DNA from: Leucobacter ruminantium
Lineage (GTDB): Bacteria; Actinomycetota; Actinomycetes; Actinomycetales; Microbacteriaceae
DNA: 64,000 nucleotides
Assembly: GCF_017565705.1 (NCBI RefSeq)
Contig: NZ_JAGDYL010000001.1
Coordinates: 186,001-250,000 of the forward strand
Reading direction: 5' to 3'
Shown: positions 15,029 to 22,187 of the stretch, piece after piece
Numbering within the stretch: position 1 is the first letter of the stretch
Layout: every line of letters begins with the position of its first letter
Notes under the pieces: generated by a model
Seen by the model: the letters and a program-made list of their open reading frames with translations, nothing else
Told to the model about the DNA's origin: nothing
The model's database searches: none
Translations under genes and position numbers: made by a program

Positions 15029-15514
15029 CTACTTGTAGAAACCGTCGCGCAGATCGATCCGGTGCTCCAACCACGCCTTCATCGCGGCGAGCATCCCGGT
15101 CCACCCCATGCAGTTGCCGAAGGCGGCCTGGGCTCCACCGGGAGTCGGTCGCCAGGATCGTTCGGTCACGCGCACCTCCGTGCGGACACCGTCGTCGACG
15201 GCGCGGAACTCGAAGCGAACCTCGGTGTCGTCGGCTCCGCCGACGATCGCGGCCGGGTCGCCGCCCCACCGGAAGACGATCCGCTGGGGCGGCACGGCCT
15301 CGGTCACCCGCACGGGGAACGCGCCGGGGAAGTCGGCGAAGTCCCACTGCACCGTCGTTCCCGCAGTCATGCGCCCGACCGCTCCCCCTGTCGTGAAGTA
15401 GCGGCTGAGGGTCGAGGGATCCGCGACGGCCTCGTACACCTCGGCGGGCGGCCGGGAGATGAACCCGAACACCGTGAACTCCAGTTCGTCCAGCGTGTCG
15501 TCCGATGCGCTCAT
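15029..15514 (-). CDS. SRPBCC (AHSA1-like) domain protein
   Basis: A 161-residue START/Bet v1-type protein. Visible are the N-terminal strand and helix ISRPPAEVYEAVADPSTLSRYFTT, the central WDFADFPGAFPVRV, RIVFRWG, and the C-terminal helix GNCMGWTGMLAAMKAWLEHRIDLRDGFYK typical of AHSA1-like polyketide cyclase/ligand-binding proteins. Ligand unknown. TAGGAT ends 6 nt before the ATG on the minus strand, suggesting a leaderless message. It is divergent from the radical SAM cluster with 63 bp between starts, so they share a control region. Confidence 0.85.
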   Translation of the reverse strand: MSASDDTLDELEFTVFGFISRPPAEVYEAVADPSTLSRYFTTGGAVGRMTAGTTVQWDFADFPGAFPVRVTEAVPPQRIVFRWGGDPAAIVGGADDTEVRFEFRAVDDGVRTEVRVTERSWRPTPGGAQAAFGNCMGWTGMLAAMKAWLEHRIDLRDGFYK

Positions 15515-15577: not shown

Positions 15578-17224
15578 ATGTCAGCGAAGACCGCAGCACC
15601 CAGGCCCGGAATGCCCCTGCGCGACTATCGCGTGCACCGCTATGTGAACGCGTTCTGCCCCGAGTGCCACGAGGAGCGGCCCGACCGGCCGCTCACCGAG
15701 GTGCAGCGGCTCTCCGGCTGGCTCGCCGAGCGCGACGGCAGGATCTGGCTCGAACGGGGCTGCCGCTTCCACGGCGTGCAGCGCACCCTCTACGACGAGT
15801 CGGCCGAGATCCTGAGCTACCTGGAGCAGTGGACCGCGCCGACGAAGATCCACACCCCCGACCTCGCGGGCAACTTCAAACCGGTGCCGGAGGCCTACGA
15901 GGACGGCCTTCCCGAGATGCAGACCCAGCACACCTGCATCCTGCTGCAGGACATCACCGACCACTGCAATCTGAAGTGCCCCACCTGTTTCGCAGAGTCG
16001 AGCCCGGCGGCGAGCGCGGTCGCGCCTCTGGAGGAGGTGCTCGCCTCGGTCGACGCGCGGCTCGCGCGCGAGAACGGCCGCATCGACGTGCTCATGCTCT
16101 CGGGCGGCGAGCCGACGCTCTACCCGTGGCTGGAGCAGCTGCTGGAGCATCTGGTCGCGCGGCCGGTGGTGCGGATCCTCATCAACTCGAACGGGCTGCG
16201 CATCGCGAACGACGACGCCTTCGTCGAGACGCTGAGGCGGCACCGGGAGCGCGTCGAGATCTATCTCCAATACGACGGGGAGGAGCCGGAGTCGTCTCGC
16301 TACCACCGCGGTGCCGACATTCGCCGTTTCAAGGAGCGCGCGCTCGCGCGCCTGTCGGAGGCGGGGGTCTTCACGACGCTGACGATGACCGCGGCCCTGG
16401 GCGTGAACGACCACGAGATCGGCGCCGTCATCCGCCGCGCGATGGTCACCCCCTACGTCGGAGGGGTGACCATCCAGCCGGTGTTCGGATCCGGGCGCTC
16501 CGCCGGCATCGACGCGCAGGACCGGCTCACGCACACGGGCGTGCTCGCCCGCCTCGGGCCTCAGACCGACGGCGAGGTGACGTGGCGCGACCTCACGGCG
16601 CTGCCCTGCTCGCACCCGCACTGCTGCTCGGTCGGCTATCTGCTGCGCGACGACTCGGACGAGTGGAAATCGCTGACCTCGCTCGTCGGGCACGAGCAGC
16701 TCAAGGAGTTCCTGGATCTCAACCCCGATCTGATCGCGAATCGGATCGCCGACAGCGGCGTCAACCAGGCGCTCAAGGAGAGCGTGAAGCAGTCGCTGCT
16801 CGATCTGCTGAGCGAGCAGTCGTCGCTCTCCCACCCCTCGATCGGCTCGCTGTGGAAGGACATCTGCGCAGGCTGCGATCTCGGGATCGGCACGCTGACG
16901 CAGCTCGCGACGGCGGCGCTGCCCGGTCAGCACCGCCGGCTGCGGAGGTTCCTCGGCGAGCGGGTGAAGCGGATCACGGTGAAGCCGTTCATGGACATCA
17001 ACACGATGATCGAAGAACGGTTGACCCAGTGCTGCGTGCACGTCGCGACGGTGCACGAGGAGCCGACGGCCGACGGCGGCAGCGCGCACCAGTGCGCGCC
17101 GTTCTGCGCGGTGCAGGCCTGGGCGCCGCTCGCCGACCGGAAGCTCTCGACCGCGACGGGCAGGCGCGGCGCGACACGGCTGCCCGACCCCGTATCGCGC
17201 GCAGAGGAGGCGGTCTCCCGATGA
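15578..17224 (+). CDS. Tes/MJ0619-type radical SAM protein
   Basis: A 548-residue radical SAM enzyme. The AdoMet cluster motif CNLKCPTC (Cys130, Cys134, Cys137) is followed by GGEPT (176-180). Extra cysteines match the MJ0619/tetraether lipid synthase architecture: an N-terminal zinc-type CPEC (27, 30) with Cys62, a mid-protein PCSHPHCC (344, 349, 350), CAGC (430, 433), CC (485, 486) and CAPFC (506, 510). In archaea this family (Tes) joins lipid tails by C-C bond formation; bacterial members are mostly uncharacterised. ATG with GGAG 6 nt upstream. The stop overlaps the next start. Reaction here is unknown; a lipid or prenyl substrate is inferred from the Lgt-like neighbour. Confidence 0.85.
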   Translation: MSAKTAAPRPGMPLRDYRVHRYVNAFCPECHEERPDRPLTEVQRLSGWLAERDGRIWLERGCRFHGVQRTLYDESAEILSYLEQWTAPTKIHTPDLAGNFKPVPEAYEDGLPEMQTQHTCILLQDITDHCNLKCPTCFAESSPAASAVAPLEEVLASVDARLARENGRIDVLMLSGGEPTLYPWLEQLLEHLVARPVVRILINSNGLRIANDDAFVETLRRHRERVEIYLQYDGEEPESSRYHRGADIRRFKERALARLSEAGVFTTLTMTAALGVNDHEIGAVIRRAMVTPYVGGVTIQPVFGSGRSAGIDAQDRLTHTGVLARLGPQTDGEVTWRDLTALPCSHPHCCSVGYLLRDDSDEWKSLTSLVGHEQLKEFLDLNPDLIANRIADSGVNQALKESVKQSLLDLLSEQSSLSHPSIGSLWKDICAGCDLGIGTLTQLATAALPGQHRRLRRFLGERVKRITVKPFMDINTMIEERLTQCCVHVATVHEEPTADGGSAHQCAPFCAVQAWAPLADRKLSTATGRRGATRLPDPVSRAEEAVSR

Positions 17225-17556
17225 GCGACGTGTCCGCGCACCTGACTCCGAGCACTCCCCCGCTGAACCAGCGGGACGCGGGTGTCGGCCCGGCCGAGCC
17301 CGGTTTCGACCCCCTGCGGCTCTGCGTGCACACGACGGTCGCCCTCATCGTCTGCGTGTTCGGACCGGCGGCCCTGCTCGGCTTCGCCCTGGTCGCCATC
17401 GCGGGGTACGCCCGCGCGCGGCGGGCTGGGCTGGTGCGATCCAAGTGCAAGCTGGGCGACACCCGGCTCGTCATCGGCTACCTCACGGTCGTCGCGCTGC
17501 TCGCCGCGGCTGCGATTCCGCTCTGGGTCCTCATGTGGATCCGCGTCTTCGGGTAG
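17221..17556 (+). CDS. small membrane protein in the radical SAM cluster
   Basis: A 111-residue protein with two long hydrophobic segments (LCVHTTVALIVCVFGPAALLGFALVAIAGYA and LVIGYLTVVALLAAAAIPLWVLMWI) separated by a basic cytoplasmic loop (RARRAGLVRSKCKLGDTR). Its ATG overlaps the radical SAM stop by 4 bp, so the two are translationally coupled. The alternating hydrophobic-basic-hydrophobic layout resembles DUF4190-type proteins, but I make no firm assignment. A membrane partner or scaffold for the radical SAM enzyme is an inference from coupling. Confidence 0.75.
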   Translation: MSDVSAHLTPSTPPLNQRDAGVGPAEPGFDPLRLCVHTTVALIVCVFGPAALLGFALVAIAGYARARRAGLVRSKCKLGDTRLVIGYLTVVALLAAAAIPLWVLMWIRVFG

Positions 17557-17563
17557 CCCGGAC

Positions 17564-18370
17564 ATGTTCCCGCGCCTCGACGACCTCCTCGGCTTCGGCC
17601 CGCCGCTCGACACGCACGGCGTGTTCGTGGCGCTCGGCCTCGCCGCGGGCGGCCTCGTGTTCTGGCTCGAGGCGCGGCGCAGGCGGGCCAGCGATCCGCG
17701 CATCCCCTACCTCGTCATCGGCGCGCTCGTCGGAGCGGGCGTCCTCGCCCGACTGGGCACCTGGGCGCAGCACCTCGATCCCTCGCAGAATCTGAACCTC
17801 GGCGAGCAGCTGCTCCGGGGCAACGCTTCGATCCTCAGCGCTCTGGTGGGCGCGTGGCTCGGCGTCCACATCACGAAACGCATCGTCGGCTACCGCGAGC
17901 GCACCGGCGACCTGTTCGCTCCAGCCGTCGCCATCGCGCTCGCGATCGGCCGCTTCGGCTGCCTCCTCACGGAGCGGCCGGGCACGCCCACCTCCGGCGG
18001 CTGGGGCATCGTGCTCGACCGGGAGGCCGCCGAGCGGCTCGGTTCCCCCGCGGGTGTCGGCCTGCACCCCAGCTTCATCTACGAGATCGCCTTCCACGCG
18101 ATCGCGTTCGCGCTGCTCTGGTTCTGGCTGAGGCATCTCGGCCTCGGCGCGGGCGAGACCCTCACCCTGTACATCGGCGCGTACGCCGTGTTCCGGTTCC
18201 TCGTCGAGTTCGTGCGCGGCAACGAGGTCGCCTGGCTCGGCCTGACCCGGCCCCAGCACTTCCTGCTCGTGACCATTCCGCTGTTCGTCGCGCGGATCTG
18301 GTGGTTGGCGAGGCAGGGCAGACTCACCCCCGACCGATCGAGGAGGCAAGATGAGCGCCAACCAGCCTGA
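17564..18370 (+). CDS. Lgt-like prolipoprotein diacylglyceryl transferase homologue
   Basis: A 268-residue membrane protein with about seven helices. GRFGCLLTERPGTP and LHPSFIYEI match the Lgt signature (the GRxGN block and HP-x-x-YE), although the usual asparagine is replaced by Cys. Lgt transfers diacylglyceryl from phosphatidylglycerol to lipobox cysteines. The sequence is short and divergent and lies outside a housekeeping context, so it may be a paralogue with a different acceptor. The ATG is 7 bp after the previous stop. Its end overlaps the next gene by 20 bp. Confidence 0.8.
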   Translation: MFPRLDDLLGFGPPLDTHGVFVALGLAAGGLVFWLEARRRRASDPRIPYLVIGALVGAGVLARLGTWAQHLDPSQNLNLGEQLLRGNASILSALVGAWLGVHITKRIVGYRERTGDLFAPAVAIALAIGRFGCLLTERPGTPTSGGWGIVLDREAAERLGSPAGVGLHPSFIYEIAFHAIAFALLWFWLRHLGLGAGETLTLYIGAYAVFRFLVEFVRGNEVAWLGLTRPQHFLLVTIPLFVARIWWLARQGRLTPDRSRRQDERQPA

Positions 18371-18929
18371 GCCGGGGCAGCCCGAGCAAAACCCGCAGCC
18401 GGAGCAGTACCCCCGCCCCGAGCAATACCCGCAGCAGCCGCGACCCGAACAGCAGCAGGTGCCCGAACAGCAGCAGGGCCCGTATCCGCAGCAATCGTGG
18501 CCCTACCCGCAAGGGTCGGAGCCTTACCAGCAGCAGCCGGGACCCTACCAGCAGCCCCACGAGTCGTACCCGCAGCAGGCTCTGCCCTACCAGCAGCCCG
18601 GATATCCCGGCGCGCCGCCCGGGCAGTACCCCTCGTACCAGGCGCCTCCGCCCGCGGGAGGCCGCATCTGGCTGGGCATCCTCCTCGCGATCGGGATCCC
18701 GCTCCTGGGCGCCCTCCTCCCGTGGGCGCTGGAATCGCTGCTGACCGATCCCCCGTACGAGATGCTGTTCCTGCTGCCGATCATCGGATTCGTCCTCGCG
18801 ATCATCCTCGCGATCGTGCTCACCTGCATCCGCGGCACGAGGCGCACCGGCATCGGCATGTGGATCGGCATCGCCTGCCTGCCCGTCATCGCATTCGGCA
18901 CCTGCGTCGCGATCCTCTTCAGCTACTGA
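18351..18929 (+). CDS. Pro/Gln/Tyr-rich membrane protein
   Basis: A 192-residue protein. The first ~100 residues are a low-complexity Pro-Gln-Tyr-Glu tail with recurring QPEQYP, QQPGPYQQP and YPQQ units, probably disordered and cytoplasmic. Two membrane helices follow (IWLGILLAIGIPLLGALLP and MLFLLPIIGFVLAIILAIVLTC), then a short basic loop (RGTRRTGIGMW) and a third helix. Function unknown. It overlaps the Lgt-like gene by 20 bp, so it belongs to the same transcript. Such tails can mediate condensation or protein-protein contacts, which is inference. Confidence 0.75.
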   Translation: MSANQPEPGQPEQNPQPEQYPRPEQYPQQPRPEQQQVPEQQQGPYPQQSWPYPQGSEPYQQQPGPYQQPHESYPQQALPYQQPGYPGAPPGQYPSYQAPPPAGGRIWLGILLAIGIPLLGALLPWALESLLTDPPYEMLFLLPIIGFVLAIILAIVLTCIRGTRRTGIGMWIGIACLPVIAFGTCVAILFSY

Positions 18930-19036: not shown

Positions 19037-20722
19037 TCAGGCGCCCGGACGGTCCTCGGGCAGCGCGGGCGTCGAGGCGGGCGGCACGCGGAAGGATCCT
19101 TCTCCCCCGGTCTCGAACGCGGTCGCGTACGCGAGCAGCGAGGGATCGGAGTAGGCCGCCCCCGCGAAGGTGAGGCCGACGGGCACGCCGATGTCGCTCA
19201 GCGGACCCATCGTCACGGTGACCGAGGGGATGCCGAGGTGGCGCAGCGCGTAGTTGCCGTTCGAGAAGAACACGCCGTTCGACCAGGCGTGGTCGGCCGA
19301 TTCGAGGTTGAACTCCGCGTCCTCGCGTCCCACGTCGGCGTTGGCCGGGAAGACCACGCCGTCGAAGCCCTGCTCGTCGAGCCAGGTCTCGAGCAGATCC
19401 CTCCGCAGCCGGTTCAGCGCCCGCAGCCCGTCGGCGAAGTCGCTCCGCTCGCGCGGGTCGGGGATGCCCTGCGCGGCGAGCGCGACCGTCGCCCGGTAGC
19501 GGTTCTCGTAGTCCTCGACCTCCTCGTAGCGATCGGGCAGCGCGCCCTCGACGCGCGGGAAGATCGTGTCGGGGTCGACGGAGGCGAGGTCGGGGATGTT
19601 CGGATCGCGGTTGGCCTTCAGGAAGTCGTCCCAGCCGAAGGCGAGGAAGTGGTTGAACTCGGTGTCCATCCATCCCTCGGGCAGCACGCCGGGCGCGCCG
19701 ACGTTCTCCTGGCCGGGGCGGTCCCCCTCGTACTGCTCGATGAGCGGGAAGTCGGTGACGACGACCTCCGCGCCGAGCGCCTCGAGACGGGCCTTCGAGC
19801 GCTCCCAGAGCTCGAGCACGGTCGGGCGCACGGCGATCGGGAAGTTCGGATCCTGCCCCAGATACATCCGGGGCGCCGCCAAGCGCTTGCCGCGCAGCGC
19901 GTCGGGATCCCTCACCTCGAGATAGGAGGCGGGCCGATGCTCGCTCGGCTTCGGCAGCTCGACCACGCTCTGATTGCGCCAGAAGTCGCCGCGGGTGATC
20001 GGGTCGTCCTGCACGAGCACGTCGAGGAGGCGGAGCATGTCGGGCATCGAGCGCGTGTGCGGCACCACGACGTCGCGGGCGGGGAAGAGCGGCCAGTTGC
20101 CGCGGATCGACAGGATGCCCCAGCTCGGCGTGTACGCGCAGAGGCCGTTGTTCGAGGCTGGGCTGCGGCCGCTCGACACCGTCTCCTCGCCCATGCCGAA
20201 CACGGCGAGGTTCGCCGCGGTCGATGCGCCCGAGCCGTTCGAGGAGCCGGAGGCGTACGCCGCGGCGAGGTACTCGCGGTTGTAGGGGTTCTCGGCGCGG
20301 CCGTAGACGCCGCGCTGCATGCCGCCGTCGGCCATGGGCGGCATGTTGGTCTTGCCGATGAGCACCGCTCCGGCCTCCCGCAGCTTCTCGACCGAGAAGG
20401 CGTCCCACTGCGCGACGAGGTTCTGGAAGGCGGGCGAGCCGGAGGCGACCGTGAGGCCGCGCACCATGTACGAGTCCTTGACGGTGAACGGCACGCCCTC
20501 GAGCGGGCGGGCCTCGCCCGCGGCCCAGCGGCGGTCGGACTCGGCTGCCTCGGCGAGCGCGTCGGGGTTCAGGACCACGATGGAGTTGAGCCCGTCGGGG
20601 CCGCGATCGTAGGCCTCGATGCGCGCGAGATAGCGCTCGGTCAGCCAGGTGCTCGTGATCTCCCCGCTGCGCAGCGCGCCCAGCACATCCTCGATGCTCG
20701 CCTCGATCAGTTCGAACGCCAT
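19037..20722 (-). CDS. Amidase signature family protein
   Basis: A 561-residue amidase hydrolysing a C-N amide bond; substrate unknown. The Ser-cisSer-Lys triad is readable: Lys82 in FTVKDSYM, the SGSSNGSGAS loop around residues 158-167 (cis-Ser), and Ser184 in EETVSSGRSPAS, a divergent form of the usual DTGGSIR. I chose the ATG of MAFELIEASIEDV, preceded by GGAAGG about 9 nt upstream; upstream in-frame sequence is not amidase-like. It is monocistronic, in line with the acyl-CoA dehydrogenase upstream but separated by about 165 bp. Confidence 0.88.
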   Translation of the reverse strand: MAFELIEASIEDVLGALRSGEITSTWLTERYLARIEAYDRGPDGLNSIVVLNPDALAEAAESDRRWAAGEARPLEGVPFTVKDSYMVRGLTVASGSPAFQNLVAQWDAFSVEKLREAGAVLIGKTNMPPMADGGMQRGVYGRAENPYNREYLAAAYASGSSNGSGASTAANLAVFGMGEETVSSGRSPASNNGLCAYTPSWGILSIRGNWPLFPARDVVVPHTRSMPDMLRLLDVLVQDDPITRGDFWRNQSVVELPKPSEHRPASYLEVRDPDALRGKRLAAPRMYLGQDPNFPIAVRPTVLELWERSKARLEALGAEVVVTDFPLIEQYEGDRPGQENVGAPGVLPEGWMDTEFNHFLAFGWDDFLKANRDPNIPDLASVDPDTIFPRVEGALPDRYEEVEDYENRYRATVALAAQGIPDPRERSDFADGLRALNRLRRDLLETWLDEQGFDGVVFPANADVGREDAEFNLESADHAWSNGVFFSNGNYALRHLGIPSVTVTMGPLSDIGVPVGLTFAGAAYSDPSLLAYATAFETGGEGSFRVPPASTPALPEDRPGA

Positions 20723-20888
20723 GATGCGCCGCCTTCCGGTTCTCGATGACCCACTGCAGAGCACTATAGCCGCCGCGCGGCCCCGGGTGAGACGGCGCCC
20801 GTGATTCGGATCGCAGCGATATTTCGGAACGGATCGTCGGCGCCAGATCCGAACGACGGGCGTGATCCGAACGAGGGTGCGCTCGGAC

Positions 20889-22109
20889 TCAGGCGAAGGC
20901 CGACAGGCCCGTGATCTCACGGCCGATGATGAGCGCCTGCACGGTCTCCGTGCCCTCGTAGGTGTGCAGCGCCTCGATGTCGGCGAAGTGCCTGGCGACG
21001 CGGTTCTGCAGCAGGATGCCGTTGCCGCCGAGCAGGTCGCGCGCGTTCGCGGCGAGGGATCGGGCGGTGCGCGTCGCCGTGTACTTGCCGAGCGAGGCCC
21101 CCGGCCCGCTGAGCTCGCCCGCCTCCTCCGCGCGGGTGAGCTGCATCAGCAGCGTCTGCAGCGACGTCAGCTGCGAGAGCATCTCGGCGAGGCGCGCCTG
21201 CACGATCTGCGAGGCGGCGAGCGGGCGGCCGAACTGGATGCGCTGCCTCGCGTAGTGCACGGCCGTCTCGTACACGGCCGTCGCGTGCCCGAGCGCGCCC
21301 CAGGCGACGCCGAGCCGGGTCGCCGCGAGCACGCGGCCCGTGTCCTTGAAACTGCGGGCTCCCGGCAGCTTCGCGCTCGCGGGCACCCGCACGCCGTCGA
21401 GCTCGATGTGGGCCTGCCAGATCGCACGCAGCGACACCTTGCCCTCGATCGTCGTCCCCGTGTAGCCCGGGGCGTCCTGCGGCACGAGGAAGCCCTGCAC
21501 CTGTCCGTCATCGCCGCGCGCCCAGACGACGGCGACCTGGCCGACGCTGCCCGACCCGATCCACTTCTTGTGGCCCGTGATCACGTACTCGTCGCCGTCC
21601 GCGGCGGCTCGCGTCTCGAGACTCACCGAGTCGGAGCCGTGCGTCGGCTCCGTCAGTGCGAACGCGCCGAGTTCGGTGCCGCGCGCGAGCGGTTCGAGCC
21701 AGCGCTCGCGCTGCTCGTCGGATCCGCACATCGCGATCGAGCGCAGCGCGAGCCCGCCCTGCACGCCGACGATCGTGGCGATCGAACCGTCGCCGCGCGA
21801 GAGCTCCATCGTGACGAGGCTCGCGGCGAGCAGGCTCTGCTCGGGGAAGCCGGGCACGTCGATGCCGTCTCGCAGCAGGTCGAGCTCCCCGAGGCGGCGG
21901 GCGAGGTCGAGCGGATACTCCGCGCGATCCCAGATGCCGTCGATCACGGGGCGCACCTCCTCCTGCACGAAGGCGCGGGCGCGGTCACGATAGGCGAGGT
22001 CGTCGGCGGAGAGGCCGCGGAAGACGCCGACCATATCCGGGTCGAGCGGCTCCCAGAGCTCGTACTCGGGTTCTGCGGTCCCCTGGCCGGCTGCACTCGT
22101 ATTCGACAT
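20889..22109 (-). CDS. Acyl-CoA dehydrogenase, glutaryl-CoA dehydrogenase-like
   Basis: A 406-residue FAD enzyme. FAD/substrate motifs are AFALTEPTHGSDSVSLET and WIGSGSVGQVAVVWAR; the C-terminal block HTYEGTETVQALIIGREITGL carries the catalytic Glu and is closest to glutaryl-CoA dehydrogenases (YEGT-x-x-x-x-ALI-x-GR-x-ITG). It probably oxidises (and perhaps decarboxylates) a short dicarboxyl- or acyl-CoA. ATG chosen for a strong GGGAGGAAG upstream; an in-frame ATG 60 nt earlier lacks one. Divergent from a TetR regulator that likely controls it. Confidence 0.87.
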   Translation of the reverse strand: MSNTSAAGQGTAEPEYELWEPLDPDMVGVFRGLSADDLAYRDRARAFVQEEVRPVIDGIWDRAEYPLDLARRLGELDLLRDGIDVPGFPEQSLLAASLVTMELSRGDGSIATIVGVQGGLALRSIAMCGSDEQRERWLEPLARGTELGAFALTEPTHGSDSVSLETRAAADGDEYVITGHKKWIGSGSVGQVAVVWARGDDGQVQGFLVPQDAPGYTGTTIEGKVSLRAIWQAHIELDGVRVPASAKLPGARSFKDTGRVLAATRLGVAWGALGHATAVYETAVHYARQRIQFGRPLAASQIVQARLAEMLSQLTSLQTLLMQLTRAEEAGELSGPGASLGKYTATRTARSLAANARDLLGGNGILLQNRVARHFADIEALHTYEGTETVQALIIGREITGLSAFA

Positions 22110-22187
22110 CGCGCTTCCTCCCTCTGTCGGCGGATCGTCCGACGCGTCCGACACGAGCATGCCTGACACGGCGTCTCAGGTCAAGGC

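Follow-up and report, generated by a model that had tools for sequence, protein, structure and literature searches.

A Tes-related radical SAM gene, an Lgt paralogue and a gene for a small membrane protein with a C-terminal cysteine form a conserved cassette in Actinomycetota

Introduction

We identified a conserved gene cassette in a 64,000-nucleotide stretch of the Leucobacter ruminantium genome (assembly GCF_017565705.1, contig NZ_JAGDYL010000001.1, positions 186,001 to 250,000; hereafter the window). The core of the cassette is a radical S-adenosylmethionine (SAM) enzyme related to the tetraether lipid synthase Tes, a dedicated paralogue of Lgt, and a small tail-anchored membrane protein that carries a G-x-Cys motif near its C-terminus. 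We tentatively read this as a self-contained lipid-modification cassette, in which the Lgt paralogue would lipidate the C-terminal Cys and the radical enzyme would modify or couple lipid tails, and we rate this preferred interpretation somewhat below an even chance. A first-pass annotation of the same DNA had suggested a system acting on membrane lipids or lipid-modified proteins. Judging by the predicted proteins, that is still the most natural reading, because a relative of the Tes family here has an Lgt homologue alongside it. We found no description of a radical SAM-Lgt-Cys-tail cassette in the open-access literature searched, and the available portions of PMC11186832 and PMC13188914 contain nothing on it.

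Results

Organization of the locus

Four plus-strand genes lie in a tight array within the 3.3 Mb host genome and encode, in order, proteins P0001, P0002, P0003 and P0004. Their features are as follows.

15578..17224, + strand: P0001, radical SAM protein of 548 amino acids (aa), divergent Tes/TrsS-type (Pfam and NCBIfam, PDB 7tol, ligand count, Foldseek)
15635..15796, + strand: Zn_ribbon_HMPTM/rubredoxin-type domain, P0001 residues 20-73 with C27, C30, C62 and H65 (PF23545, E 1.1e-10)
15965..15988, + strand: CX3CX2C motif of the radical SAM cluster, C130, C134 and C137 (87 of 87 sequences)
17221..17556, + strand: P0002, two-helix small membrane protein, 111 aa (locus count, alignment, hydropathy)
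17564..18370, + strand: P0003, Lgt paralogue, 268 aa, with the motif GRFGCLLTExPG (PF01790, model, linkage)
18351..18929, + strand: P0004, Pro/Gln-rich three-helix membrane protein, 192 aa, with C-terminal G-x-Cys; proposed acceptor (profile, hydropathy)
18831..18926, + strand: C-terminal signal of P0004, consisting of RGTRRT, a membrane helix, G183-T-C185, seven residues and the stop (alignment A4)
18897..18905, + strand: codons of G183-T184-C185 in P0004 (sequence)

The coordinates confirm the earlier description of the spacing: the stop of P0001 and the start of P0002 (ATG at 17221) share 4 bp, and P0003 starts 7 bp past the P0002 stop. In addition, P0004 overlaps P0003 by 20 bp. The case for one operon derives from this spacing and from the conservation described below; a consensus scan found no promoter-like or terminator-like sites.

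Linkage and distribution

A scan of species genomes returned 263 radical SAM relatives; the 80 best were retrieved, and two more from a genome search gave 82 loci. All loci were selected for the similarity of their radical SAM proteins and include many close relatives, and their open reading frames (ORFs) and starts were called mechanically. In 79 of the 82 loci there is a match to P0003, which follows the radical SAM gene in 42 of them and precedes it in 37. Among 96 loci, 92 have an Lgt-like gene no more than 3 kb from the radical SAM gene. The remaining four (L036, L080, L099 and L149) lie on contigs that end at most three bases from the radical SAM gene, on the side where the Lgt-like gene is expected. 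Two pairs within the 96 are not separate entries, as L003 and L153 record a single place and one split cassette is divided between L137 and L149; apart from these, no two loci have identical radical SAM sequences. This grouping is far beyond chance, and the radical SAM and Lgt-like genes form the most constant pair of the cassette. The four genes do behave as a conserved unit, as first proposed. Of the anticipated conservation of gene order, nearness is kept and order is not.

The distribution of the cassette is patchy. Across 396 evenly sampled Actinomycetota genomes, searched in the same way for each of the two proteins, the cassette-type radical SAM and Lgt proteins occur in the identical ten genomes and in no others. 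The limits used for this count (E<=1e-100 for radical SAM and E<=1e-70 for Lgt) were chosen afterwards at wide gaps, the next matches being at 1.8e-58 and 3.9e-43, respectively. Five of the ten genomes share only the phylum with the window and lie outside its class. Strong matches were found in two of 150 genomes sampled from the family, and neither of the two same-genus genomes listed has the cassette. The nearest cassette relatives are mostly Leucobacter records, with 89-91% identity in the radical SAM protein. The radical SAM/Lgt pair is also present on plasmids of Mycobacterium avium and M. branderi and in a Nonomuraea record. The viral contigs searched gave no match.

The Cys-tailed protein

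The product of the fourth gene had been annotated as a disordered-tail membrane protein. P0004 is indeed a membrane protein, with three helices predicted from hydropathy; what is conserved, however, is the G-x-Cys near the C-terminus, within the last helix or following it. The idea that this gene is not conserved came from a tblastn search that found it in eight of 82 loci, and was overturned by an iterated profile, which recovered 99 family members in 81 of the 96 loci. Every one of these 81 loci has a Cys-bearing member. By eye we recognized tail proteins missed by the profile in three more loci: L084, where the protein has one helix; L136, where a DUF2510 domain is followed by one helix and the tail; and L183. 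Tail proteins are therefore present in 84 of the 88 loci with usable flanking sequence, eight loci (L003, L028, L030, L036, L053, L099, L137 and L149) being cut or short-flanked.

The N-terminal portion of these proteins is variable and often Pro-rich. Their ends share a common plan consisting of positive charges, a hydrophobic helix, G-x-Cys, a further 5-20 residues (median 9) and the stop. Counting from ten residues upstream of the tail Cys, the nearest Lys, Arg or His lies at a distance of 17-25 residues (median 21). The Cys itself is present in 91 of the 99 members and the Gly at position -2 in 96; position -1 is Pro in 34 and Val in 32. The G and the Cys are the sole invariant columns of alignment A4, which comprises 30 rows with a mean column identity of 27%. 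When expressed as a pattern (K/R-helix-GxC-tail, with a hydrophobicity filter), the plan fits 88 of the 99 family members versus one of 969 other called ORFs of the 82 neighbourhoods, and that lone ORF adjoins the cassette of L048 and is apparently a further copy. A search of the 396 genomes with A4, in which at most 12 first-look candidates were scored per genome, gave three weak partial matches among the 386 genomes without the cassette, none of which has the tail. Pfam and NCBIfam scans of the tail and P0002 families produced scattered weak matches only.

The lipobox of N-terminal lipoprotein signals has the form [LVI][ASTVI][GAS]C. The tail resembles such signals in its positive charges, its hydrophobic helix and the Gly near the Cys. 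However, it is located at the C-terminus, has G at -2 and mostly Pro or Val at -1, and is followed by only 5-20 residues. The tail Cys is predicted to be at the outer membrane face.

Several loci carry more than one tail protein. In Nocardioides-type loci (L066, L069, L070, L075, L076, L078, L080 and L082) Cys-less and Cys-bearing paralogues occur together, and their roles may differ. The M. branderi and M. avium plasmids have two tandem copies each. In Dactylosporangium vinaceum (L098, 7292-7992), near-perfect tandem repeats were seen by eye between the Lgt-like gene and the tail protein.

The radical SAM protein

P0001 matches the Pfam family Radical_SAM (E 4.7e-19) in addition to Zn_ribbon_HMPTM. 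Its best NCBIfam match is TrsS (NF045646), with 186.5 bits over residues 42-492 and a cut-off of 490, and the Tes model NF045702 gives 151 bits, below its curated cut-off of 450. The sole PDB relative at E<=0.001 is the Tes protein MJ0619, or GDGT-MAS (7tol, E 2.3e-32). Comparison of a predicted structure with Tes, which the first-pass annotation had proposed as a check, points the same way: an AlphaFold model (mean predicted local distance difference test score (pLDDT) 69, moderate confidence) matches 7tol (E 4.2e-21) and 7tom (E 7.7e-21) in Foldseek, and the next match is at E 1.4e-5. Superposed on 7tol, the model gives template modelling (TM) scores of 0.58/0.64 and a root-mean-square deviation of 7.6, and has the overall Tes fold.

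We aligned 87 cassette-type sequences, the window included, with 12 distant Actinomycetota relatives and MJ0619, whose known ligands match the alignment letters once the chain numbers are lowered by 20. All 87 cassette-type sequences retain the rubredoxin-type site CX2C...CX2H, the CX3CX2C motif and the cysteines aligned to MJ0619 C338, C455 and C456, and an HxHC segment is likewise shared with Tes. In contrast, the ligands of the N-terminal auxiliary [Fe4S4] cluster (C73, C77, C80 and H83 in MJ0619) are replaced by V, D, P and Q in P0001. All four are gone in every one of the 87 sequences and all four are retained in 11 of the 12 distant relatives. The claim that P0001 has the full cysteine layout of the MJ0619/Tes family therefore does not hold. 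Together with the score below the NF045702 cut-off, the metal-site ligands rule out that P0001 is a Tes, so that of the Tes assignment what survives is relatedness in sequence and predicted fold. That it is TrsS is ruled out by the score below 490 and by the lack of a methyltransferase partner. By sequence and model, P0001 is a relative of Tes and TrsS with the Tes (MJ0619) fold, but no Tes.

The Lgt paralogue

P0003 matches the Pfam family LGT (PF01790) with E 1.5e-25 and 90.3 bits, well above the gathering score of 24.9. However, it falls far below the NCBIfam Lgt equivalog cut-offs, with a best score of 61.7 versus 334 and a score of 47.1 versus 118.9 for TIGR00544. A model of P0003 (mean pLDDT 86) has a single PDB match at E<=0.001, which is Escherichia coli Lgt (5azb, Foldseek E 1e-5). 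Four residues invariant in 31 members, R130, R211, E215 and R218, correspond by alignment and spacing to R143, R239, E243 and R246 of E. coli Lgt. Of these, R143 and R239 have been reported as essential, and E243 and R246 as conserved and intolerant of change (PMC4728403). Also invariant in the 31 members are C133 and E137. In the Lgt tree the cassette proteins form their own clade (support 100/99).

The first-pass annotation had observed Cys in place of the usual Asn and proposed a different acceptor. The motif does read GRFGC. However, Lgt homologues that do not belong to the cassette have GRxGC as well, so the Cys is by itself no sign of a new acceptor, and we rejected it as a special mark of P0003. 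Similarly, loss of the HGGL-type His was discarded as a meaningful feature, since ordinary actinobacterial Lgts in the alignment lack this His too. Two further, ordinary-looking Lgt genes are present in the same genome, on contigs C37 and C67 (L172 and L164).

The small membrane protein P0002

P0002 has two helices by hydropathy, and its C35 and C76 are invariant in 29 aligned members. It is encoded in 80 of the 96 loci. Of the 16 loci without it, three are cut and 13 truly lack it. These 13 loci, which have flanking sequence, led us to reject P0002 as a universal substrate, and it is an accessory part of the cassette.

Persicobacter and distant relatives

A related arrangement is present in the Bacteroidota. 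On plasmid pPP1 of Persicobacter psychrovividus (L183), a radical SAM gene of the Tes family overlaps an Lgt-like gene (248 aa) on one side and, by 4 bp, a 59-aa ORF on the other. This ORF ends in ...GTGICGSLLS and has the order K/R, helix, GIC, GSLLS, stop. The N-terminal cluster motif is present in the Persicobacter radical SAM protein. Persicobacter groups with the cassette clade against the other rows with support of 100/99 in the Lgt tree and 93/88 in the radical SAM tree, although both trees flag its rows as long branches, so that the placement is unsure. Approximately 2 kb downstream of the trio, at 11581-17010 of L183, is a very long gene in which acyl-carrier-like segments recur and which we take to resemble a polyunsaturated fatty acid synthase subunit.

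The neighbourhoods of 15 distant Actinomycetota relatives (L138-L152), some of them short contigs, contain no P0003-like Lgt, and in eight of the 15 a methyltransferase gene adjoins the radical SAM gene. A methyltransferase neighbour is what we take to be the defining trait of TrsS. None was found in 83 cassette and plasmid loci (L023-L102 and L183-L185, a search separate from the window), nor among the scanned neighbours in the window. Radical SAM-methyltransferase pairs also occur on Mycolicibacterium and haloarchaeal plasmids (L186 and L187), as a separate two-gene module.

Flanking genes

The genes flanking the cassette in the window are all on the minus strand: an AHSA1/SRPBCC gene (15029-15514), an amidase (19037-20920) and an acyl-CoA dehydrogenase (20889-22169). 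A homologue of the amidase is present in both same-genus genomes that lack the cassette, and the dehydrogenase lies some kb away in one of the two stretches retrieved from them.

Discussion

From the genes, their linkage, the tail motif and the family and fold relations, we infer the following scheme, including its acceptor Cys, donor lipid, membrane topology, sequence of steps and radical chemistry. The small protein has, at the C-terminal rather than the N-terminal end, a signal resembling that of lipoproteins (positive charges, hydrophobic helix, Cys). The Lgt paralogue, whose active site is expected to face outward as in Lgt, would move a glycerolipid from phosphatidylglycerol onto the Cys sulfur. 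The radical SAM enzyme would be held at the inner face, perhaps docked by P0002, and would modify or couple the lipid tails by activating one of their sp3 carbons, either ahead of the transfer or once it is done. Lipidation of the C-terminus by the Lgt paralogue is the simplest reading because it accounts for both the enzyme pair and the Cys tail.

A number of observations weigh against this interpretation. The labile Met439 of the MJ0619 C-terminal cluster is replaced by Lys in all 87 cassette-type sequences, and Tyr459 by Val in 86 and Ala in one; with the N-terminal cluster gone as well, the lipid coupling of Tes cannot be transferred to P0001. Loss of the Met does not by itself rule out coupling, since a Tes M439A variant is reported to keep activity (PMC9433317). 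The P0001 model is of moderate confidence. Same-family enzymes beside methyltransferases in the distant loci indicate other contexts for this family. P0003 has the signature GCxxTE (GCLLTE) where ordinary Lgts have GNxxNxE. As for the tail protein, it is absent from four loci with usable flank (L031, L133, L134 and L135), those of L084, L136 and Persicobacter were matched by eye and not by the profile, and eight of the 99 family members, all paralogues in loci that also have the Cys form, lack the Cys. At the cassettes of the ten cassette genomes in the 396-genome sample, A4 found matches in only five. P0004 also evolves fast, with a ratio of nonsynonymous to synonymous change (pN/pS) of 0.83-0.84 in two comparisons with close relatives. 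Its tail is no lipobox and no cleavable N-terminal signal is evident, and the orientation of its helices derives from hydropathy and positive charges only. Finally, the loci are not independent, being mostly from Microbacteriaceae and Nocardioidaceae.

The product of the cassette might instead be a special membrane lipid that stays free and is either tail-coupled or alkylated, with the Lgt paralogue serving a non-protein acceptor or supplying substrate, the small membrane proteins acting as scaffolds and the tail Cys being structural. Tes itself couples free glycerolipids (PMC9433317), and in bacteria, where 456 Tes homologues have been described, such homologues have been proposed to account for membrane-spanning lipids (PMC8941075); the constancy of the radical SAM/Lgt pair also speaks for this reading. 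However, this explanation leaves unaccounted for a G-x-Cys that is the sole invariant element of P0004, in a gene changing far faster than that for the radical SAM protein (pN/pS 0.16-0.18, with 0.24-0.34 for the Lgt paralogue and 0.40-0.48 for P0002; three comparisons each). It also leaves unexplained the Cys tail of a 59-aa protein in another phylum, and Met439 and Tyr459, reported to be fully conserved in archaeal Tes (PMC9433317), are gone here. We regard a free lipid product as unlikely, though it is the alternative to which we give the most weight. Another bacterial enzyme linked to lipid-tail coupling is the membrane-spanning lipid synthase Mss; it is reported with Ger, and the available part of that report mentions no Lgt (PMC13274423).

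Alternatively, the Cys-tailed protein may be a substrate of the radical SAM enzyme in the manner of a ribosomally synthesized and post-translationally modified peptide (RiPP), acquiring for example a thioether or C-C link at its tail, with the role of the Lgt paralogue limited to anchoring or lipidating the product. This would suit a protein that is small and variable yet fixed in its C-terminal motif, encoded next to a radical SAM enzyme with further conserved cysteines; it would also suit the tandem tail copies on the M. branderi and M. avium plasmids, and RiPP-lipoprotein hybrids have been reported (PMC12636315). On the other hand, the tail Cys is predicted to be at the outer face, away from the cytoplasmic enzyme, the closest solved relative of P0001 acts on lipids, and the Pfam scan of P0001 itself found no RiPP recognition element (RRE) or protease domain. 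We consider this explanation improbable. Slightly more improbable still is that P0001 is a TrsS-like enzyme and P0003 an additional Lgt of the ordinary kind, acting on the tail protein or on other lipoproteins. TrsS is the top-scoring NCBIfam model for P0001 and the key arginines are kept in P0003. However, the TrsS cut-off is not reached, and the methyltransferase found beside TrsS-like relatives in the distant loci is lacking in all 83 cassette and plasmid loci. Moreover, the genome already has two other Lgt genes, and P0003 scores below the Lgt equivalog cut-offs listed.

Lipidation of the C-terminal Cys by the Lgt paralogue, our preferred reading, could be carried further. The cassette would then represent a second bacterial pathway of protein lipidation, in which the dedicated Lgt paralogue lipidates the C-terminal Cys and the Tes-type radical enzyme joins the tails of the attached lipid to a lipid in the other leaflet, giving the small protein a membrane-spanning anchor, with the trio present in Actinomycetota and at least one member of the Bacteroidota. 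We hold this extended scheme to be about as improbable as the RiPP-like one.

The cassette provides one subfamily of Tes homologues with a fixed partner, the Lgt paralogue, and with a likely substrate protein. If the Cys is lipidated, the substrate of the radical enzyme would follow, and modification of a lipoprotein at its C-terminus would, to our knowledge, be new. The cassette also calls for caution, as not every bacterial Tes homologue need be a source of the membrane-spanning lipids used as climate proxies.

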